Assembly (NCBI GenBank): GCA_964036045.1
Contig: OZ038395.1
Span: 4,355,753 to 4,419,752 of the forward strand
DNA: 64,000 bases
Direction of reading: 5' to 3'
DNA from: Eutreptiella sp. 'Long Island Sound 2002'
Lineage: Eukaryota > Euglenozoa > Euglenophyceae > Eutreptiales > Eutreptiaceae
The first letter of the stretch is position 1, and every line of letters starts with the position of its first letter. Of the stretch, positions 2,509 through 62,077 are shown piece after piece. The position numbers were made by a program, and so were the translations under genes. The notes beneath the pieces are model-generated. The model was not told the DNA's origin. It saw only the letters and a program-made list of their open reading frames with translations, and ran no database searches.

Positions 2509-5500
2509 TCATGCGGTCTGACCATCGCCGACGAAGGGCCACAGTGCCGTGATGCGTGCGAGTGACTGCGGGCACACTGCGAACATGTCCCGCCGGTCCA
2601 CTCCCCCTTTTGCCCTGCCTTCCCGGTCTCGCACCCCTGGCCCGGCTTCCGGACCTTTGGCCGTCTTCAGATGGTGCAGCACGCCGCACAGAAAGTACAG
2701 GTCGGCGGTCTGGACCCCCGTTTCGTGCACCTCTTTGGAGTAGCCCGAAAGAGGCACCGTAAGTTCCGTGGCGAGCCATGACCAGTTCACGGGCCAATCT
2801 TCATGCTCCTCCTGGGGCAGAGAGGCAGGCAGGCGGGTGTGGGGGGCAGGCCTTTGCTTAGAGGGGGGGGGGGGTCCAGGGCGGGTTCCTAGTGAGGAGC
2901 CTTGTGGATGGTGCTGGGTCCTACTCAGCTGCCCGTAGGGCGGGGCTCCTTCCTACTGAGCTGACTGGCATGTGGGGCTGGATCCTACTGAGATCCCTCA
3001 CCAGGGGCAGGGGATCACCCCCAGCCCCCGCCCCCACTAAGCAAAGGCCTGGTGGGGGGGTTGCATGGGGTTCGACGCTTCCCATCAAAACGTTTTGCAA
3101 CAAAACATTTTTCTGACAAAAAATTTGCATCCGTAGTACAAACCCGCTCAGAGTCCCAGGAAAACCACAGATGACCCCAATCCTTCGCTGCACTGGGTCA
3201 CTGACTCACGAGTGCGTCACAAAAACATTTGAAAAAAAATGGGCAAATTTTTGGCAAAAATTTTTGTTGGAATACTTTTTTTTTTAGCACAGCAAAGTTA
3301 TCGAAATGAGCGGCCTGATCACGGGCATAGCGTTCATGACGAGCCGAAGTTCACCGAAGGACACCCGAGCGGTCAAGGGGTGGCACTCAATTTTTGTTGC
3401 AATACTTATGTTGGCCGGTGTGACCGGTCCCCGCTTATCTGGGCCTCCCTCTCAGGCTGAGGAGAGGGAAACAAACACTCGGATTTTGGGTGGAGGAACC
3501 TCCCGCTCCTCCACTCATGGGCTCCACGCATCCCTCGCTTGTCACTTGTTCTCCATTTCCATGTTCCCTCGCGACCCGCCCCGCGCGGTCTTCCCAAACG
3601 CACAGACCGGCAGAGAAACACGCGCACAGGGCCATGGCTGCCGCGAGAGGGCGAGCACCCGATTCACATTGCACAAACCGTCATCGGTTGGTCGCTCTGA
3701 GACACCCCGGCCACACGCGACCCCGACAGACGTGCGGTGGGGCATCACTCAAAAGTGCGTCGGCCTTGCACCAATGAGGCGTGGGGGCACCGTTTGAGGG
3801 CTGCAGCGTGAGGCGGGATGCGGCCTGCTGCGGCGGTGGGAAGGCGAGCAGGCCCGGGATTGGGATGTACCCCTCCAGCGGCGGGGGGGGGGGGGGCGCG
3901 AAGGCAAGGCTGCGCCGCAGCCCCTCGACGTGGTGGCGCAGCAGCACCTGCCCGGCCCGGACGCGCCGCCGCTCCATGGAACAGCAGCCGCGGCAGCCAC
4001 CGCGCGCGCGGGCACTCCTCGGGCGCGGTGGGCAGGACCGAGCAGCGATGTATTGGAATGGGGGGGGCCTCAATAGGTCAGGTGTGGACCCACCACTTAG
4101 CTCCAGCCGCGCCTGCCTCACGACCTTCATTGCCATCTCAGTTCCTTGATTGTGCGTGGAAGGGGGGGCAGGGGGGTCTGAAGCGCGGGGGGGGGGGGGG
4201 GCTTGGCTGGGACCCCCCCTCCTCCCAGGGTCCCCATATGGTCTCCGCCGAAGGGGGGGCCCTAAATTTCTAAGCTTCAATCCTCTTGGCACCGAAGGCG
4301 CCGAAGCAAAATTTTGGCTGTCAGCCTCAAACATTGGAAGAGGAGGGGGGGGGGGGGGGCCTGTGGGGGGGGGGTGAGGGGGGTCTAGGGAGGGGTACCC
4401 CCCCCCCTCTTCCTACCGTGTACGGCCGTTCTAATACATCCCTGCGACCGAGGCTGCCCAAACGAGAGATCCCCGCCAGATCGGACACGGCCGGCCGGGC
4501 CCGTGCAGGAAACCCGTGGGGCACGACGTGTTTGACCCCCCCGGCCGTCACTACCGGTCATTTGCTCTGCGTCTGATGCGCCCGCGTCTGCGCTGCCCGC
4601 ATTTCACTTGCGGGTCGGGGCTCGCGTGGTGGTTTGTTTTCGTGGAGATCGTGAGGACGGTCCAGCGTCTGCTGCGTGGGCCCCGCTGAAGGGGGTGTGC
4701 TGCGCATTGTGGTGAGGCAGCCGGTGGTTGAAGGGCTGTAGGAGGGTTTTCATGTGCCTTGAAATCCTTCTTTGGACACCGCAGGAGGCCCAATGGAGTT
4801 GCTGCCTGCAGTCGCTTCGGACAGCACTACGCAGGGCCTATTGGGGGGGGGCCTATTGGGGGGCCTATTGGGGGGCCTATTGGGGGGCCTATTGGGGGGC
4901 CTATTGGGGGGACTATTGGGGGGCTTATTGGGGGGCCTATTGGGGGGACTATTGGGGGGCCTATTGGGGGGCCTATTGGGGAACGGGCCGCCGACGCACC
5001 TGACACAACACCAGCGCGTAGCATGACGACACGTGAATGCCCCGGAGCCGCGGCCCGAAAGCCTGTTGGCAGAGCTGCACGAAGTCATAGACCGAGCAGA
5101 ACTCCTCGAAGCCGTACTCCGCCGTCACGGCCGTGGGGGTGCAGCTGAAGACCTGCCCCTGCGCGCTGGCGTGCACGCTCAGCATCACCACCACGTGCTG
5201 GGGGGTGGCACCTGCAGAAACGGCGGCGTGGGCCTCGCGGCGGCGGCAGCAGGTCCCGACGACGCGAAATGCGGTGAACACCGGAGGGCGGCAGGCAGCG
5301 GCATCCCTGAGGGCCGCGGTGCACGACCAGCGCAGGGGACGGATCACACGGGCGCACAGCGACTGCACGCACACCGACCTCTCGAGCCTGTTTCGAAATT
5401 TTTTGGAAAAATCAAAAAAAAATCCAAACAGAAATTTCCAAAAAGAAATTTCCATCAAATTTTCAACAAAAATTCCACAGAATACCCCAATTCATTCCCC

Positions 5501-20069: not shown

Positions 20070-21049
20070 GCGGGGGGGGGGCTGGCGATGCGCTTTCGCG
20101 TGCGTTCGGCTGTGCTTTGCGGGTATTTCTGAACTGGAAAATTCAACTCCAGAACATACGATGCACCAGCTCCAGGGATCTCCGCATGCCACTGGCCCTT
20201 CTGCGGATCATCGCAGCGCGGCCGCCCCGAATTACACCGGGGCCCCGCTCTGCCGGGCATGGCCCAGGGGCTCCGCAGCCTTCGAACTTGGACGGCGCCG
20301 GCGGGAGGGCACGACACCCGGGGGCACGACGGGGGGCCCTACACGCGGACTTGGCGCGTGGGACGGTGTTGTGTTGTCAGTACTGTCCTCCGCGCTCGCC
20401 GCTGCCTCTTTGTGGGGGCCCCACCCACGGGCCATCTTCGTGTTGCGCTCTGCCGTGACACACGGGTACCTCTGGTCTCGTATGCCACTGCCTGAGCCAA
20501 AGTTGTGCCGACCGCCTCCTGTGCACACGCGCAATAGCCCAGACTGCCTTCGGGGAGGGGGAGTGTCTATTTTTTTTCGACCTTTTGCAAAAGGCGCCTA
20601 GGGCCGTTTTTGGCTCTTGATAAGCTTTTCTCCTCTTCTTGTGGCCTGCATGTGCTGATTTGTTGCGGACGTCGTCTCAACCAACAAGGGCTCCGCTGTT
20701 CCCCGACTCTTGAGACGACATCCCAACATCCGTCAGCGGGTCGTCGGTTGGCCTTCAACCGTCGGCGGTTGGCGGGCGGTCGCCAGCGGTCGGCGCCCGC
20801 GGCGGTCCCGGACTTTCTTCGGTGGCAACGGACGGGAAGGTCCTGCCCCTTCATGGGGCCCCTGCTCTTGCCCCCCCCCCCCCCCGTATGGTGACGTGTG
20901 AGCTGTCACGTGTGTGCTCTCGTGGCTCTCGAACGACTCCTCTGCCGCTCGGAAGCACCGCCCACTCCCATGACACTACCCCCCCCATCCCCCTCCCTGC
21001 GCCAGGCTATTGCTGAAGGAGGGTCGGTGGGGGTGGGGGGTGGGTGGGT

Positions 21050-28869: not shown

Positions 28870-29320
28870 GCACCTGTCAACCAACTGTCAACCACCGTCA
28901 ACCAGCTGTCAACCAGGTGTCAACCACCTGTCAACCACTCAACCAGCTGTCAACTACTGTCAACCACCTGTCAACCACCGTCAACCACCTGTCAACCACC
29001 TGTCAACCACCGTCAACCACCTGTCAGACACCGTCAGCCATCTGTCAACTGGCGTTAATCACCTGTCAACCACCTGTCAACCACCTTCAACCAGCTGTCA
29101 ACCAAGTGTCACCCACCTATCAACCTTGACACCTGTTGGACAGGTGGTTGACGGTGGTTGGCAGGTGGTTGACAGGTGGTTGACAGGTGGTTGACAGGTG
29201 GCTGACACCTTGCTGACAGGTGGTTGACGGTGGTTGACAGGTGGTTCACAGGTGGTTGACAGGTGGTTGACAGGTGGTTGACAGGTGGTTGACACTGGTT
29301 TGCAGGTGGATGACACCTGG
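28870..29320. repeat. Fold-back minisatellite: CAACCACCTGT array followed by its inverse
   Basis: From 28870 to about 29130 the top strand repeats GTCAACCACCTGTCAACCACC units of 10-11 bp. From about 29143 to 29320 it repeats GGTTGACAGGTGGTTGAC, the reverse complement. A spacer of about 15 bp lies at the centre of symmetry. Confidence 0.9.
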
Positions 29321-29780
29321 TTCCGCAGAGAACGAATGTTCCGCGCAAGGGAGTGTGCAATCGTGAGGCAACAGCGGAGTGTGTGTGCTGCACTGGTGTA
29401 CATATGCAGCGTAAAAATTTTGTGGGAGGTGAGTCAATGCCCTCCAGGGAGTACAGCGGATGCTATTGAACGTGCCACACAGGAGGTGGGGAGAGGGGAG
29501 ACGCGCTCGATGCACATACACTCCCGGCGGAACAGACCAAAAGGTAAGGGGACGACGCTCCACTGCTTTTGTGGCTGTCGATGTGTGAGGCCATTGCCCA
29601 AGAGGGGTAAACAACCTCCTCGCCGGAGTGGAGATGCCTGAGGATGGCGAAGTAACTGCTGCCATGGCGGAGAAGGGGTCCGGTAGGTGGGGTAGGTGCC
29701 AGTGCCGCAATGGCTTTGGCATGTCTATGCGTCTCTGAGTGTCTATTTTTTTCCCAGCCCCGCTCATTTATGACAAGGTG

Positions 29781-32700
29781 ATGGCGGACTTTTCCCCCCG
29801 TGTAACATCTTTGAGACGACTGGTTCTACTTGATGATGATGATGATGACCATGCGAGAGTTGCTGCAACTCGACCAAAATCTGCCCCGACGGTGAGATAT
29901 GGTAACGTGAATCATTCTCTTTGGCCCCTGAAGAAGAGAAGGCCACAGTCAGCGGCCTCACGGTCAGCAACTTTCTTGACCTCTGTCACTGCCGACGAGG
30001 AAGCCCCTGAACTCGATGAAGTTGCAGTTCAAGCGGTGCTACAAAATCGAGTGGAACACCGGGTGCACTGTGCGATGAACAAATGGATTGCTGAACGGCA
30101 CCCGCCGGTTGTCCTGGCCCGTCAGGGAACGCTCGCGCTGAATCTTCATGCGAAGTTCGTTTGGGTCGGCATGTCGTGGGACGTGCTCTCCGGTACCGGC
30201 CCGCCGTGCGAGCTCGACATCCTCGCGTTCTGTTTGGATCGGAACGGGGTTTGCAAGAGCAAGAAAGACGTTGTGTACTGGGGCAACCAGGCCAGCACCC
30301 TCGATGTGCTCACACACCAGGACGGCGGCAAGCCCGGCGATATGGAAACCTTGAAGCTGAGCACGTACCGGGCAAAGGTGGCGGGCATCTGCGAGATTCT
30401 GATATTTGTGAATATCCGCCGTGGACGGAGGTTAGGCCAGTTTTGGGACCAGAACGTCCGGAGCTGCAAGTGCTCGTGTTACGAGAAATTCGGCTCCCGC
30501 TACCGCGAGTTCGCCTCCGTTCTGATCGAGCCCCCTTTCGGAGCGGGGACGACGACCGTTGAGGTCGCGAGACTCAAGCGGCAGAGCGGGGCCTGGGGCT
30601 TCCACGCGGTCTGCAACGAGACGAAGCTGACCACGAAGCAGCTCCACGAGACGTTCGGCGAGGGCTTCAATCCCGCGGCCCCGCACGCCATCAAGCGGGC
30701 CAAAGGGGAGGCGTACGCGATGGAGGACTACCAAACGGCCGACGCCATTCTCGTCGGGTTCTCGTGGGTGTCGCTGCCCTCCCGGTCGGGCGCCGCGACC
30801 AAACTGCACGTCGCGGTTGCCATGCTGGACGCGAACGGGCGGCTGTGCAAGCCCATGATCACGGGGCTGACCAACAAAGGGGCGGGCGTCGTGCACAAGT
30901 GCGAGTCGCACGCCGCCTTCATGGACGACGACAACATGGACAGCGAGACCGTCGAAGTGCGACTGAGCCAGGTCCAGTGGTGGAGATAGAGTACCCCCCC
31001 CCCGCCCTTGTCTAAGCTACGCCCTTGTCCAAGCTAGTAGGCGTAGGGACCGTATTAATTTGGTACCTAATTTTAATTCGGTACCAAATTTAGTGCAACT
31101 ACATCAGACATGGGTTTGACGAATTTGCCGGGTACATAGGGTCATGTACACATTTGTTGTGAGTGTTTGCCCACTTGAACCCACATAACTCTGATTTTGG
31201 GGCCTTGCCTTTGGGAACATGGGTGGAGGTTGAGGTGCACTCATACTATGCGCTCATTTACGTGTGTGTCGGTAGTTGTATATGTCGCGCGCAAGCTACG
31301 CCCGTGTCCAAGCTACAGTAGGCGTAGGGACCGTATTAATTTGGTACTTTGGCGTAGCTTAGACAAGGGGGGGGGGGTACATCCCATGTGGGTTTAAGGC
31401 AAAATGACCGATTTTTGGCGATTCTTGAGGGACAAAAAGTGTTATTGCACAGACACCCGTTGGTGAGTCCCAAAGCATTTCCCCCGAATCTCTGCTAACA
31501 CCCACCAACTTGCATTGTGTAACTTTGCATTCAGATTGCAAGCGTTGCTGCCCTTCAAAAGCCGGTTTTCTATTCTTTTAGCAATCGTAATTACTGCATC
31601 CAACTGTATCCCAAGCTCCAGACGTGTGTGTGCCATGTGTATCTCAGCCTTCAAGCGTGTGTACCACGGAGGATATCACAGAGCAACCACAGCGGTAAAG
31701 ACAGAGAGCCGCTAACCCACGGTGAGTTGTATGCAGTGACCCGCAGGTCGTGTCAAAACACGTCAACAGCGTTGGGCTTGATCAGTATGCGATATTACAG
31801 GTGTTGTGCACCATGCTCTGGGCGCATGAACTCTACAGTGTCACTCTGCTTGCGGCAAGAACACATGAGAAGCCAGGATCCCGGTGTGTGGGGCTGGGGG
31901 AGCACTGAAAACCACGCGATTTGGCCACCTCTCGCCAGGTCCCGGACGACGTCAGCGACGTGGTGGTCCTGGCCATCGTGGACGACGCGTGCCAGGCGGC
32001 GGGGCGCAACTTCGAGTCCATCACCAACGGCACCCTGCGGCTGTACATGCGGCAGTCCACCGGCAAGTCCACCGACCTGTGCCTGCACCACCTGCCCAAC
32101 CACCTGCAAACCGAGACCTGCGTGGAGCTGGGCCGCTTCTCGCGGCAGCGCGACGCGTCGTTCGCGAAGTTCCATTTCACGTCGCAGGGAGTCCGCGCGG
32201 ATTTCAAGACGCTGCTGAAGGGCCTGCGGAACGGGACCTTCCTGATGAAGCGGACGCTGCAGGGCCTCAGGTACAGGGATGCATTGGAAGGGGGGGGGGT
32301 GCCCCCCCCCCCCCCCAGCCTACGCCCAGCCACTGTCTCCCTCACGGCAAGTGCCAGCGTCAACGGCATTTGTAACCGACAGTAACCGCCCCAACCGCTT
32401 TGGCAACCTCCTCCAACCGCCTGCCTAACCGCCTCTGAGGTCCCTTCCCTTCGAATGCATCCCTGCTCAGGTACGGCGACCGCTGCAACATCACGGAGGC
32501 CTGCCCCGGCACGAGCGTCTTCCGCGTGGCGTGCGGGTGGGTGAACCCGCCCGGGACGCCCTTCGACGTGGACCTGCTGTCGTTCGGGGTCGCGGAGGAC
32601 GGGAAGCTGCGGACCTCGAAGGACTTCGTGTACTGGCGCAACGTGCGCAACCGGTCCGAGACCATCCGGCTGGTGAACGACGCGCGCGGCGGGGCGGGCG

Positions 32701-33784
32701 CAGAGGAGGAGGAGGTCCTGGAGATCGAGTTGTACAACGTCCCCGACCCGATCCACAGCGTCATCCTGATCGTCAACATCTGCAAGGCCCAGCAGCGCAA
32801 CCAGTTGTTCCGGGCGGTCAAGGAGGTATAACACACAGGGACACATGCGTACAGATAGAAATACCCGGAGGTGCATGGCTATGCACGTCTGGAGAGCCCA
32901 CACAGGGTCCAGAGCCCCGGGCATGAGGTCAGGGGCGTTGCATTTCGTTTCGTCTCGTTTCGCTTCGCTCTGTTTCGTTGCTGGTGTAGGCGTGGATCCA
33001 CATGTACGACGCCGAGACGCAGCAGCGCATCTTCAGATACGACGTGGAGATGGCGAACTTCGAGTCCGCGACCGCCATCGAGTTCGGGCGCGTCGTGCGC
33101 GCGAGCAACGGCCAGTGGGTCTTCCACGTCCAGCCCGAGCCCATCAACGGCACGTTCACGGAAATCAAGAGCAGCTTCTTCCGCAACTTCATCACCGAGG
33201 GTTGCCGTCAGGTCCTGGACTTCCGTCACGCGGTGTTCGGGCTGGGCTGGGACGTGCCCAAGACGCACAGCGGGCCCCCCTTCGATCTGGACGTGCTGGT
33301 GCTGGCGCTGGGCGCCGACAACCGCCTGGTCAGCGACGGCTGGTTCGTCTACTACAACCACCTGGCGACCGGCTGCCGGTCCATTGTGCACAACGGCGAC
33401 GCCCGCGACGGGGACTCCAACAAGGAGGACGACGAGACCGTGACCCTGAACCTGTGGGACATGGACGAGCGCGTGAAGAAGGTCTCGTTCATGATCAACA
33501 TCTACGAGTGCCAGAGCCACGGCCACTGCTTCACGCAGATCCCCACGCTTTGGGTCCGGGTGTGCAACCGGGACACCAACGCGGAGCTGCTGCGGTACGA
33601 CATGGACACGGAGGGCTTCGCGGGCGTGCCGACCATCGAGGTGGCGCAGTTGGTGCGCCTGGGGGACGGGCGGGGCTGGGAGTTGACGGCGCTGGGCAAC
33701 ACGATGCAGTTGGATGTGGACGGGCTGTATCAGTTGTACGCGCCGCGCAGGAGCTGGCAGGGGCACATACAGACGGGGCATTGA
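29781..33784 (+). CDS. Protein with four tandem TerD domains
   Basis: CDS join(29781..30971, 31939..32270, 32471..32825, 32990..33784): 2673 nt, 890 residues. Start: ATG in GTGATGGC context; an acceptor (TTTTTTTCCCAG) at 29758 suggests a 5'-UTR intron. TerD (tellurite-resistance/stress family, a calcium-binding beta-sandwich) occurs four times, at about residues 124-273, 322-476, 524-669 and 708-855. Each begins with the (G)xxWD/V signature (VGMSWDV, VGFSWV, VACGWV, FGLGWDV), followed by a DLD-like strand (ELDILAFCLD, HVAVAMLD, DVDLLSFGV, DLDVLVLALG). The last copy keeps most acidic ligands; the second has lost the DLD motif. The N-terminal 120 residues are basic with a run of six Asp. Domain 2 is split by intron 1 and domain 3 by intron 3; intron 2 lies between them. 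All three introns look transposon-derived. A stress or calcium role is inferred from the family. Confidence 0.92.
30972..31938 (+). other. Intron 1 of the TerD gene, bounded by a 9-bp direct repeat
   Basis: The donor side is GAGCCAG|GTCCAG and the acceptor side TCGCCAG|GTCCCG. GCCAGGTCC is present at both ends (30967-30975 and 31934-31942). The ends just inside, AGTGGTGG and the reverse complement AGAGGTGG, resemble hAT termini. Splicing leaves one repeat copy and joins Gln to Val in phase 0. A family E element (30994-31377) is nested inside. Confidence 0.8.
30994..31377 (+). mobile_element. TA-flanked MITE family E, copy 2 (nested in intron 1)
   Basis: Starts with a C run then GCCCTTGTCTAAGCTACGCC and ends GGCGTAGCTTAGACAAGG plus a G run. 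Both flanks read GTAC, so the duplication is TA or GTAC. The two subterminal copies of GTAGGCGTAGGGACCGTATT are in direct orientation. Confidence 0.9.
32274..32465 (-). mobile_element. hAT-like MITE family B acting as intron 2 of the TerD gene (introner)
   Basis: 192 bp with terminal inverted repeats CAGGGATGCATTGGAAGGG and CAGGGATGCATTCGAAGGG. It is flanked on both sides by CTCAGGTA (32266-32273 and 32466-32473), a perfect 8-bp duplication. The resulting intron 32271-32470 uses the donor CAG|GTACAG from the left duplication and the acceptor CTCAG| from the right one. Joining gives AG|G (Arg) then TAC, in frame with the following exon. Relatives lie at 21634, 22262 and 52970 in the opposite orientation. 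Confidence 0.95.
32827..32987 (+). mobile_element. 161-bp element family G acting as intron 3 of the TerD gene (introner)
   Basis: Starts TATAACACACAGGGACACAT and ends TTTCGTTGCTGGTGT. It is flanked by AGG on both sides (32824-32826 and 32988-32990). The intron 32826-32989 (donor GAG|GTATAA, acceptor GTGTAG|G) removes the element plus one AGG and joins Glu to Ala in phase 0. A second 161-bp copy is at 58938-59098. No clear inverted repeats. Confidence 0.88.
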
Positions 33785-33870
33785 AGGTCCGACCGCGGTT
33801 GGCGGTGAACCGATGGCGGCTGGGGCTTTGAGCCGCCAGCAGGTGTTGGCGGCGGCAGGGAGCCAAGGAT

Positions 33871-34189
33871 CAGGACTGCCCTTAGGAACCCCAATTGGTT
33901 TTTTGTGAAGGACAGCCAACCGCTAACCGCCAACCGCCACCAACCGCCAATCGCCAACCGCCAATCGCCAACCGCCACCAATCACTAACTGCCAGCCGCC
34001 AGCCGCCGCCAACCACCGCCAACCGCCAACCGCCGACCGCCGCCAACCGCCAACCATTCTCCAATACTGTTTCCGGGGTTTTGTGTCTTGCCCATGTTTT
34101 GACCATGAAGAAGAAAGCGTCCCCGTGACAGTTCATTTCTGTTGGTGTTACGAATTCTTTTCTTTTTTTTCCCCTGAGGGACAGCCCTG
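33871..34189 (+). mobile_element. hAT-like MITE family I, copy 1
   Basis: 319 bp from CAGGACTGCCCTTAGGAACC to CTGAGGGACAGCCCTG, with a perfect 8-bp flanking duplication CCAAGGAT (33863-33870 and 34190-34197). The interior begins with a CCAACCGCC-rich minisatellite, then a conserved block around GTGTCTTGCCCATGTTTTGA. It starts 86 bp after the TerD stop codon. Confidence 0.93.
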
Positions 34190-34419
34190 CCAAGGATGCC
34201 ATGGGCTGACATCGCAATTTATAACCTTCAACAGTGGCCAAAACCCACAGATATGCCAGCTATGCCCGGGGCTTATTGATGCCTGTGCGCCTGCCTTTGC
34301 TCAAGGCATTTACAGCGGTTGCCAAAGGGGAAGCCTGCTGGCAGGCTCCGGACGCTGCCGTCGTAGTACAGCATAACCGGTGCGGAGGCGCAATGCACAA
34401 GGCCGGGGAGTCATGCGGC

Positions 34420-34672
34420 CAGGGCTGTTCTTAAGACGTCTTTTCTGGTTAAGGACAGCCCTCAAGGACAGCCCCTTGGGACCAGCAACTGCCAACCGCC
34501 AACCGCTAACCGCCACCATCCACCAATCACCGCCAACCGCCAACCCTTGTTCAATAATGCTTCTGTGGTCTTGTGTCTTGCTCATGTCTTGACCGCGAAG
34601 CACAGAGCGTCCCCGTGACCGCTCATTTCTGTTGCCGTTACAAACCCTTCCCCCCCCTCAAGGACAGACCTG
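34420..34672 (+). mobile_element. hAT-like MITE family I, copy 2
   Basis: 253 bp from CAGGGCTGTTCTTAAG to CTCAAGGACAGACCTG. Flanks CATGCGGC and CATACGGC match at 7 of 8 positions. Interior as copy 1, with a shorter CCAACCGC array. Confidence 0.88.
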
Positions 34673-58817: not shown

Positions 58818-58937
58818 GTGCAGGCCTTGGCAAGCTGGCGAAGCCCGCTCACCAGAGGGCACTCGAGAAATCTCTCGGAATCAAGGATCAGAGCTGTCCA
58901 ATGCTATGATTATCCCACAAGGCGATGTAGTAGCGGG

Positions 58938-59098
58938 TATAACACGCAGGGACACATGCGTACAGATAGAAATACCCGGAGGTGCATGGCTATGCACGTC
59001 TGGAGAGCCCACACAGGGTCCAGAGCCCCAGGCATGAGGTCAGGGGCGTTGCATTTCGTTTCGTCTCGTTTCGCTTCGTTCTGTTTCGTTGCTGGTTT
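58938..59098 (+). mobile_element. Family G element, second copy of the TerD intron-3 sequence
   Basis: 161 bp, the same length as 32827-32987 with no indels and four single-base differences, three internal and one near the end. Flanked by GGG on both sides (58935-58937 and 59099-59101), where the intron copy has AGG. Its right border reads TTTGG, so it lacks the AG needed as an acceptor. Confidence 0.88.
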
Positions 59099-59101
59099 GG
59101 G

Positions 59102-61782
59102 TGTGTCTGGTAGATACGAGTGGATGAAGCGGGGGGGGGCGCCCATCCCCGGAACACCCCCCCCTCCCCCGCCGCACTCTATCACCCCCCCCATCCCCCA
59201 CAGCGTGATGGGGTGCAGCTCTCGCTTCGTTCCGTTTCGCTCGGACTGGACCCGGTGGGGCCCGACGCGGCCCGACTCATTCCGACCGGTTTTGTCTTGT
59301 TCCGCATTCGTTGTTGTCGCCTCCGAAGGTGTTGAATGGTCCTCCGTCCTGCGGTGTTTGTGCAAAGGGGGAGGGGAGGTGATGACTTGACCGCCGCTTA
59401 ATGGAGTCACCCTGGCCCGAGGACGTCCCGTTCGACACCCGCGCTTTCTTTTTGTCTGTTTTGTCAAGGAATACAGACGCCCCGCGCTGCTGGAGACCGG
59501 GCCGTTGTCGGCGGTTACTGACCGACCGCTGTCTGCCGACCGCCAACCGCTGGCGGTTAGCCAAATTTCGTTGGTTGGCCGCCGGTCCGGCCCTGTTTTG
59601 AAGCCCCGAAATTCGGACGCCCGGAGCTGTTGCTTTTCTTTTTCTGCTCAGGAACGTCCCGCAGGTGGCCCTCCTGTGGCTCGCCTGCGCTTGTGGGGTG
59701 GACTTAGTGCGAGTACCTTCTTGATCGCAGCTGTTGCTGCAGTGCTCTCCGTCACTAGAGCCTCATGCAGACCGTCTGTGAGCCCTTCCTGTCTTCACAC
59801 AGAGTGTGGTCTGGCGGAGGCGCAGACAGCGGCACTCGCCCAACGCCATGCCCAACCTTACCACACTGTGCCCCCCATCCACCCTGCCTCAGCCCCAGGG
59901 GTCTGCTCCGATTTTCGTTGCGGCGAGGGGGCGGGGGGGCAAGGGGCTGAAGTAGCACCTGCGAGCACCCACTCTCACCCACCAAAAATACCCCTCCCCA
60001 CCGCCTGGGGACTGAAAACTAAAACCGGACCGAATCATTTTGCTGATTTGTGTTCAGCTGCTTGTGCCGGGCCTACGCAATGTTTGTGTCTGTATCAGTG
60101 ATCAGTGACGGGACAGGACAAAGTGGGAGAGAGTGTCAAACGCTACCACCTAACACTTAAACCAATGCGTACACCGAGAGTACTAACCGGCACACGTGCG
60201 GGGCCTTTACCCCCCCCCCCCCCACACACACACACAACACAGCCACAGTGTGGAGGCACGCCTGCACAACACACATCTCAGTGCATGAAACCGGAAGCAC
60301 CACTGGCAAACCTGCTCCACTTTTGATGGATCAAGCCCCCTCTCCTCCACCCCTTCAGGCACACCCCTGCCCTGACCTGAGTCACGTCGGGAATGCAGAC
60401 CTGCGCGGCATCAACATTCCAGAACAGGCAACAAAGATCATGGAGGGGGTTGCATGCAGCGTGCGCGCACCATGCAAAGTTTTTGGTGCATCGGGCTACA
60501 CAGGCACTCCTATTTGCGTCATCTTACATTCTTAGGGGGAGCATTTGATTTGATGTGTGCGCAGTGCAGCTGTTTGGAGACGTCCACGGCCCATGTTTGT
60601 GGCCAAAGGGTTTGTCATTTTGGGAGGGGGTAAAAATCCGGACATTCCGGGTGTGTTTGCTGCAAAAGTTGTGAGCGGTGCAGGTGTGGCGCAAGTACTG
60701 CCCCTTATATTGATTTAAGTAGTTTTATTATCATTTATTTCTTTACTGTATCTGGCGTCTGTTGCCCCGTATATCTACCAGGGTCAGGGTCACCGGGTGG
60801 AATTTGGGTGGGTGTACCCCCCCCCCATTTTGAGGGTGAAGAACTCCAAAAAAAAAAAACACACGTTCGAAGGTATTTGATGGTTAGGGTTGGGTATTGG
60901 GGCCCATCAAGGGGTAGGAAGGGCCAGAAACGGGTGTGGCATCACTGCTCACACGATCCTGAACAGAACTGTGTTACTAACGGTCGCATAAGACATGTTT
61001 GAGGTGACTCAGGGGTTCCCCAGCGTATGGTGTGTTTGATGGATCCACTCCTGCTCCTTTCCGCAGGGGCCCCCACATGAGGATACCCCTAGTACCCACG
61101 AATTCAGACCCACGTGGAATTCATGCCACCCTGGTTTTGTGAGGGCCTTATCGCTGGGGCAGCATCTCCGGAAACATCTCAAAAGTGCCGCGCCGTGCGC
61201 GCGCCATGCGACAAGCCCCCTTTGAAGTCAGGTGTAGTGGGAGCCCGGTTGGTGGTGGCACACCTGAAGACCTCCTTCTGCAGCATTACTCATGGAGGAC
61301 TGCCAGTATGTAGTCTACTCTCCTGCCCCTTCTCCTGGGAGGGGGGCGATCTGACCCAGACGGCCCAGGAAACATTCGATGGCCGTATCAGAGCGGTGAT
61401 CTCAAGGCAACATTCGAGGCTGGTCTGGTTTGCGCTGCAGGAGCGGCACGGCAAAACATTTTGTGATTGCGGTACAATTGAGAAGTGTTGAACTGAGTAC
61501 ATGGCATGAGGTCAGGATCATGCTGGTTTTTTCAAAACCTGACCTCATGGCCTGCCCCTTGTCCGGGCGCGGACGTGGACCAGGACCAGTGCCGCACACC
61601 CCTTTGTATATGTACATATGTCAACCCCAACCCCGACCCCAACTCAACGCAACACCCCAGCGGAACGGATTTGCCCTCCAGCCGCTACGATTGAATATGA
61701 ACTCATGTTGCAGTGCTTCGTTGCCGGTGCCGCAGGCGTGAGGGACTGGTGGGAGGGGCAGTGCCTGCCTGTGTCTGGGTTT
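59102..61782. other. No supported gene
   Basis: Frames are short or compositionally biased. A plus frame at 61114-61491 ends with protein-like text (SWEGGDLTQTAQETFDGRIR) and may be a mobile-element remnant. A short (CA)n tract is at 60223-60239. Confidence 0.45.
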
Positions 61783-62077
61783 CAGGGCTGTCCTTAAGAA
61801 CCCCAATTTTGCTTTGGTAAGGACAGCCCTTAAGGACAGCCCCCAATTAACACCAACTGCCAACCGCCGACCGCCACCAACCTTCGACCCCCAACCGCCA
61901 CCACCCGCCACCAACTGCCAACCGCCAACCACCAACTGCTGCCAACCGCCAACCACTGTTTCTGTGGTCTTATGTCTTGCCTGTGTCTTGACCATGAAGC
62001 AGAGAGCGTCCCTGTGAAGGTTCATTTCTGTTGGCATTGCGAACAGTTTTCATTTTTTATCCCTGAGGACAGCCCTG
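61783..62077 (+). mobile_element. hAT-like MITE family I, copy 3
   Basis: 295 bp from CAGGGCTGTCCTTAAGAACC to CTGAGGACAGCCCTG. Flanks CTGGGTTT (61775-61782) and CCGGGTTT (62078-62085) match at 7 of 8 positions. The CCAACCGCC array and GTGTCTTGACCATGAAGCA block are as in the 33.9-kb copies. Confidence 0.9.

Follow-up and report, generated by a model that had tools for sequence, protein, structure and literature searches.

A hAT-like miniature transposon as the probable source of an intron in a four-TerD gene of Eutreptiella, with related copies in frame in three other conserved genes

Introduction

The closest described counterparts of the intron discussed here are the introners of Gozashti et al. 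2022 (PMC9860276), the introner elements of Amoebophrya (PMC7789003) and the nonconventional and intermediate introns of euglenids (PMC4770533, PMC6221363). This intron is the second of three predicted in a gene with four TerD domains, which lies in a 64,000-nucleotide stretch of DNA, henceforth the window, of Eutreptiella sp. 'Long Island Sound 2002' (assembly GCA_964036045.1, contig OZ038395.1, positions 4,355,753 to 4,419,752 of the forward strand). The original prediction took all three introns of this gene for apparent transposon insertions, of up to three unrelated types that had converged on the same AG|G target. We find that intron 2 is the only one that appears clearly transposon-made, its anatomy making a strong case; the claim of three families falls, and what is gained is a link to the introns of euglenids.

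The introners of PMC9860276 are short non-autonomous elements with inverted ends and a target duplication, which form precise in-frame introns whose splice sites come from the duplication. Between 1 and 43 introner families are reported per genome, with enrichment in genes in 161 of 175 genomes. In Amoebophrya, direct repeats of 3-5 nt span the borders and inverted repeats stand at the ends of introns that are mostly not GT-AG. The nonconventional introns of euglenids likewise have direct repeats at their borders and ends that pair, with a stem consensus of CAGG at +4 and CCTG ending at -6 (PMC4770533 section 8). The model in that paper further asks for a pyrimidine at the end of both the upstream exon and the intron, and for A and C at positions 2 and 3 of the downstream exon; an intron fitting both the conventional and the nonconventional model is named there as hypothetical. 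An origin of nonconventional introns from miniature inverted-repeat transposable elements (MITEs) is suggested in PMC4770533, PMC6221363 and PMC12621601, the last of which credits a 2014 paper. No actual element is named in the available portions of these three papers, nor in the titles and abstract openings among the matches listed, a set that leaves preprints and most subscription papers outside.

Results and Discussion

Intron 2 and its dispersed family

The four exons join into a single frame of 890 amino acids with four TerD stretches (Pfam 2.9e-103), uninterrupted and in phase once each insertion is removed with one copy of the direct repeat at its borders. The junctions originally proposed (30971/31939, 32270/32471 and 32825/32990) hold as in-frame GT-AG borders, and so do the repeats containing AGG: 9 bp for intron 1 (GCCAGGTCC), 8 bp for intron 2 (CTCAGGTA, where a ninth base, C, matches too) and AGG for intron 3. 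We regard this gene, with its three predicted in-phase introns, as real. Among AG|GT...AG pairs lying 100-1200 bp apart within the window, 53-56% carry a repeat of at least 3 bp, 0.4-0.6% one of at least 8 bp and 0.2-0.5% one of at least 9 bp. Against this background introns 1 and 2 stand out by their repeats, whereas the AGG at intron 3 is at chance level and carries no weight.

Intron 2 consists of a 192-bp element and its target duplication. The element has 19-bp inverted ends, CAGGGATGCATTGGAAGGG and CCCTTCGAATGCATCCCTG, with 18 of the 19 letters paired, and the exact 8-bp duplication around it contains both GT and AG. Its sequence matches three further main places inside the window. A search of the whole assembly (2,280,300,865 bases in 2205 contigs) returned 3170 first-look candidates, 40 of which, including the window copy, were scored; all 39 others were fetched and read, having been selected by likeness to the window copy and not at random. 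Of these 39 copies, 24 have the two ends together with 7 or 8 of the 8 duplication letters, and nine have good ends with all 8 letters duplicated. At position 2 of the 24 duplications, with both strands counted, T outnumbers A by 14 to 2, which amounts to A over T at position 7; three of the 24 are GTGGGGGG and add to this bias.

MITEs of the hAT superfamily have CAGGG ends, inverted ends starting with CAG and 8-bp target duplications, and hAT target duplications favour T at position 2 and A at position 7. The intron 2 family shares the CAGGG ends, the length of the duplication and the favoured T and A. Its structure thus suggests a hAT-like MITE. A different MITE, with ends CAGGGGGTGCCATA and TACGGCACCCCCTG and an exact duplication TCTAGATC, was seen in one of the fetched stretches (L014:550-796).

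The explanation that we favour, and consider highly probable as a whole, comprises a retrocopy followed by transposition. In a euglenid related closely to Euglena gracilis, the four-TerD gene would have arisen by reverse transcription of a trans-spliced mRNA. A coding CTCAG|GTA site would afterwards have been hit by a non-autonomous hAT-like MITE with CAGGGATGCATT ends and an 8-bp duplication, the duplicated CTCAGGTA providing GT on the left flank of the element and AG on its right. Splicing, as predicted, would remove the element with one copy of the duplication and so restore the old reading frame. Three further conserved genes would carry members of this family in the same manner, AG|GT reading in each gene's own sense.

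The notion that a target duplication supplies splice sites had been advanced for all three introns; it is supported for intron 2, plausible for intron 1 and unsupported for intron 3. The original prediction gave it as established for some algae, and the legend of Fig. 2E in PMC9860276 prints both splice sites as coming from the insertion site in Florenciella; what was called possibly undescribed was the convergence of up to three element types in one gene. Intron 2 accordingly resembles the introners of that paper in its short non-autonomous element, inverted ends, target duplication, in-frame position and source of splice sites. It differs in that its host is a euglenid, that the copies of its family read here stand mostly outside recognisable genes and that it is known here from sequence alone. 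With the introner elements of Amoebophrya (PMC7789003) it has in common that direct repeats span its borders and that its ends are inverted repeats, and it differs from them in its GT-AG borders and longer repeat.

Copies of the family in other genes

The assembly holds 69 sites of the form AGGTN{0,4}CAGGGATGCATT. Of these, 25 are gapless and were left unread; among the 43 other gapped sites, the window copy excluded, 27 were read, the last seven picked partly for donor-like letters. The right end falls within the stretches read in 17 of the 27 (16 with no fewer than 6 of 8 duplication letters and 7 of 12 end letters, and L131 by its exact duplication alone). In three of the 27, coding flanks join in frame once the element and one duplication are removed.

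The first of these (L117) lies in a gene for a TPP enzyme, with the junction KKQ|VVPIM and a putative intron of 224 bp; TPP_enzyme_N is recognised left of the junction (Pfam 3e-7), and an alignment to pyruvate oxidase runs across it (3.8e-11). The second (L125) lies in a sodium/proton exchanger, where a putative phase 1 intron of 218 bp interrupts a match to Na_H_Exchanger over residues 2-134 (PF00999, 2.4e-5 across the junction; 23.8 bits vs a cut-off of 26.2). The third (L131 with its neighbour L135, C15:15620281-15621259) lies in a UDP-sugar pyrophosphorylase, with the junction DEQ|VTIVK and the exact duplication CAGGTGAC, and aligns across the junction to solved relatives (8.3e-38). Its putative intron is long, 579 bp, because the MITE carries extra internal DNA, both duplications still being exact. 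All three putative introns contain in-frame stops, and GT stands 4 or 5 nt before the element in them, against 3 in intron 2. Thus four predicted introns in different genes are alike up to near their splice sites, and removal of each would restore the frame exactly, as is seen with introners.

Several points weigh against this picture. In 24 of the 27 copies coding sequence was not seen on both sides, and the majority of all copies read fall outside any recognisable gene. The flank score alone recovers 2 of the 27, L131 having been recognised after an extra stretch that the controls neither needed nor got, and its right end is poor, with 5 of 12 end letters. The right flank of L120 hits a stop after ~19 codons, and in L132 the left flank alone is open and recognised. 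The in-frame copies were found through the AGGT motif and the controls by likeness to the window copy. Two coding flanks occur in none of the 39 copies not selected for AGGT, and 3/27 vs 0/39 gives a p of only 0.064. One flank rises above 99% of the background in four of these 39 control copies (L008, L041, L042 and L099). Set beside the enrichment in genes reported for introners, the nearest copies here show two coding flanks in 0/39 cases and one flank above that background level in 4/39, in a sample that is not random. Two further copies with AGGT bear on single flanks: L120 has a GPS motif on the left (0.0019, under cut-off) with the exact duplication TCAGGTGC, and L123 a weak paraflagellar-rod match on the right (PF05149, 5.8e-4; 19.9 bits vs a cut-off of 23.4). 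From this small count of copies found by motif, AG|GT within the duplication looks like a condition for becoming an intron.

Relationship to the nonconventional introns of euglenids

Intron 2 reads GTA-CAGG ... CCTG-CTCAG, with CAG at +4 to +6, G next to it at +7, and, before the 3' border, C at -9 in front of CTG at -8 to -6. It thereby carries the stem consensus of the nonconventional introns; intron 1, which begins GTC-CAG, has the CAG but CTC in place of CTG, and intron 3 does not fit the consensus. At the borders of intron 2, G, G, T and A stand where the published model expects a pyrimidine, a pyrimidine, A and C, and all three introns are GT-AG. Intron 2 shares with the introns of PMC4770533 and PMC6221363 the direct repeats, the pairing ends and the positions of CAG and CTG, and differs in its standard GT-AG borders, in its border letters and in belonging to an identified dispersed element. 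In the terms of that literature intron 2 would be at most 'conventional/intermediate'.

Intron 2 might nevertheless be removed by the nonconventional pathway through pairing of its ends, its GT-AG being incidental, or by both pathways. Its stem consensus and the pairing of its ends in the predicted fold speak for such an exit, but the fold is no more stable than those of shuffled sequences (z -0.74), the other in-frame copies have GT at 4 or 5 nt and not 3 nt before the element, and the border letters do not fit. Given the misfit of these letters, we regard removal by that pathway as unlikely. Since the border letters misfit and the distance of GT varies between copies, the family instead seems to use the standard spliceosome.

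The same anatomy offers a reading of the nonconventional consensus itself, to which we give an even chance: the pattern of 3 nt, CAGG ... CCTG and 5 nt would be the footprint of hAT-like MITEs, one kind of insertion with two exits. If CAGG and CCTG are the ends of an element, 3 + 5 makes an 8-bp duplication, and cutting at these borders restores the sequence before insertion whatever its letters. A duplication that by chance contains AG|GT could be handled equally by the standard spliceosome, as would be so in intron 2. The border preferences fit as well: the pyrimidines at the ends of upstream exon and intron would be one duplicated letter, and likewise the purines at the starts of intron and downstream exon, while A at position 2 of the downstream exon would be position 7 of the duplication, where the present MITE family favours A over T.

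When the window was scanned for CAG...CTG inverted ends enclosed by 8-bp duplications (7-8 letters alike), five elements emerged (at 4043, 32274, 33871, 34420 and 61783), against none for eight other end triplets. In the fetched sequences, exact 8-bp duplications with CAG...CTG inverted ends mark 14 distinct elements, among which intron 2 alone has a strong coding signal on both sides (48.6; the next has 10.8), and none of the 14 came to light as a nonconventional MITE intron. Three of the elements in the window (33871-34189, 34420-34672 and 61783-62077) are MITEs of another family, with CAGGRCTGYYCTTA ends and duplications of 8, 7 and 7 of 8 letters; the first of them directly follows the stop codon of the four-TerD gene.

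With a dispersed element whose ends and duplication match, and which stands in frame in four genes, the nonconventional-intron consensus gains a simple and checkable account. If it is true, a single kind of transposon insertion could leave euglenid transcripts by either of two routes.

History of the four-TerD gene

Just upstream of the gene stands a relict spliced leader, TCTGAGTGTCTATTTTTTT, to be compared with the E. gracilis leader, which includes ACTTTCTGAGTGTCTATTTTTTTTCG (PMC6242988). Together with the weak paraflagellar-rod match beside L123, it points to Euglenozoa and not to other algal groups as the host. If up to 3 mismatches are allowed, chance alone should yield its 18-letter core 0.03 times per window. 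The core itself occurs 5644 times in the 2.28 Gb (~1 per 404 kb), against 0 for the reversed control, and simple arithmetic puts the chance of a core within 60 bp upstream in sense at ~7e-5. A second relict, GAGTGTCTATTTTTTTTCG at 20561-20579, is identical in 19/19 letters to the 3' part of the leader; because ACC and not GT follows it, it probably marks the 5' terminus of a further retroposed transcript.

Two paralogues illuminate the gene's past. That on contig C2 (G000:C2:184760503-184762842), 35% identical, is one open frame of 998 amino acids in which 780 codons cover residues 84-863 of the four-TerD protein, leaving no room for, and hence lacking, these introns. The closest, on C6, is 41-61% identical per piece and is broken into 12 colinear pieces over 94 kb, one with an internal stop. 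Exon 1 of the window gene spans four borders of the C6 paralogue, which has no border at residues 397 or 626, the sites of introns 1 and 3. Thus a leader relict lies just upstream and, if C6 represents the parent, as we suppose, nearly all of the parental introns are absent. The gene therefore looks like a retrocopy of a trans-spliced mRNA, which would explain most of the observations, and since it looks like one its introns are probably late gains. The leader relict would in this way let the introns be dated later than the retrocopy.

Some observations do not sit well with this history. The 2.7 kb after the stop codon yielded neither a poly-A tract nor a flanking repeat. Two fetched copies (L104 and L107) have the leader tail followed by the same downstream letters, marking a repeat family tagged with the leader. 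Moreover, a C6 border at residues 505-507 adjoins intron 2 (507.67), ~1-3 nt away, and could mean that intron 2 is an old intron at a re-used position shared with the C6 paralogue, its content having been replaced by the MITE. However, chance brings one intron out of three as near as 2-3 residues to a C6 border in 18-27% of trials; intron 2 holds nothing beyond the MITE and an exact duplication; in the C2 paralogue the frame runs on across the site; and the gene lacks the other C6 introns. We thus hold replacement of an old intron to be quite improbable. The near-coincidence may be due to chance, or to a splice-like exon junction left in the retrocopy.

Introns 1 and 3

Intron 1 is a mosaic with dispersed repeats, a feature absent from the original prediction (Table 1). 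A nested MITE in it would be Tc1/mariner-like by its structure, and a ~250-bp repeat, 31679-31927, stops 6 bp short of the 9-bp duplication. If an 8-bp duplication, GCCAGGTC, is assumed, the insert starts with CAGTGGTGG and ends with CCACCTCTC, which form a weak inverted repeat. No other full-length copy was present among the candidates scored. The 8- or 9-bp repeat and CAG at +4 suggest that intron 1 probably goes back to a hAT-like insertion of greater age, since decayed and invaded by other repeats; that it is transposon-made is possible.

Intron 3 occurs at two places in the 2.28 Gb, its own and one 26 kb downstream, which are 98% identical over 160 bp, the likeness ending only a few bases from the splice sites. 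Neither the window nor the assembly revealed a dispersed family for it, and its inverted ends show nothing above 6 letters. The likeliest origin would be a local copying event and not a proliferating element. If a double-strand break was mended using a patch from the downstream site, or if the intron was copied to there, this would account for exactly two copies, in cis, alike to a few bases from the intron ends, and for the short flanking repeat; PMC4770533 puts forward break repair as the source of a new euglenid intron flanked by 8-nt repeats. On the other hand, copying may have run either way, diverged copies may evade a word search, and the downstream copy could equally be the second hop of a rare ~162-bp element with 3-bp duplications (AGG, GGG). 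We see the chances of the repair scenario as balanced. The 3-bp duplications of the two copies (AGG and GGG), spotted by eye, are indistinguishable from chance.

These results bear on the claim that introns 2 and 3 match dispersed elements, which stands for intron 2, in the window and genome-wide with three further in-frame copies, and not for intron 3, with its one other place; in intron 1 only the nested repeats are dispersed. Three unrelated introner families converging on one gene would be in keeping with the repeats around all three introns, those of 8-9 bp at introns 1 and 2 being beyond chance, and with the second copy of intron 3. Against it stand the single other copy of intron 3 and its chance-level repeat, the nested pieces of intron 1, one ending short of the duplication, with no other full-length copy seen, and the possibility that introns 1 and 2 share one structural class. 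Such a convergence is accordingly very improbable.

Features of the locus

Table 1. Features of the four-TerD gene and related sequences (positions in the window)
Feature	Position	Strand	Description
Relict spliced leader TCTGAGTGTCTATTTTTTT	29734..29752	+	19/19 letters shared with a part of the E. gracilis leader; 28 nt separate it from ATG
Exon 1	29781..30971	+	Joined reading frame, Pfam TerD
Predicted intron 1	30972..31938	+	967 bp, phase 0, GT-AG; flanked by GCCAGGTCC at 30967-30975 and 31934-31942
Nested MITE in intron 1	30994..31377		27-bp inverted repeats near ends, TA on both sides
Single monomer of a 194-bp tandem-repeat family in intron 1	~31385..31581		Dispersed repeat
~250-bp repeat in intron 1	31679..31927		Seven other copies read end at 31927 +/-1 bp
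Exon 2	31939..32270	+	Joined reading frame
Predicted intron 2	32271..32470	+	200 bp, phase 2, GT-AG; donor and acceptor within duplicated CTCAG|GTA
hAT-like MITE (by structure)	32274..32465		192 bp; ends CAGGGATGCATT...AATGCATCCCTG; duplication CTCAGGTA at 32266-32273 and 32466-32473
Exon 3	32471..32825	+	Joined reading frame
Predicted intron 3	32826..32989	+	164 bp, phase 0, GT-AG; repeat is AGG only
Exon 4, including stop codon	32990..33784	+	Joined reading frame
Sole other copy of intron 3 in the assembly	58936..59105	+	Ends near the splice sites, without the AG

A search for homologues with residues 400-890 gave one match (8000 candidates scored). Five Rfam matches were returned for 29000-34500, all far under the curated scores. 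Runs of short repeats resembling CAACCACCTGT and CCAACCG are visible by eye on both sides of the gene, at 29000-29310 and 33915-34060.

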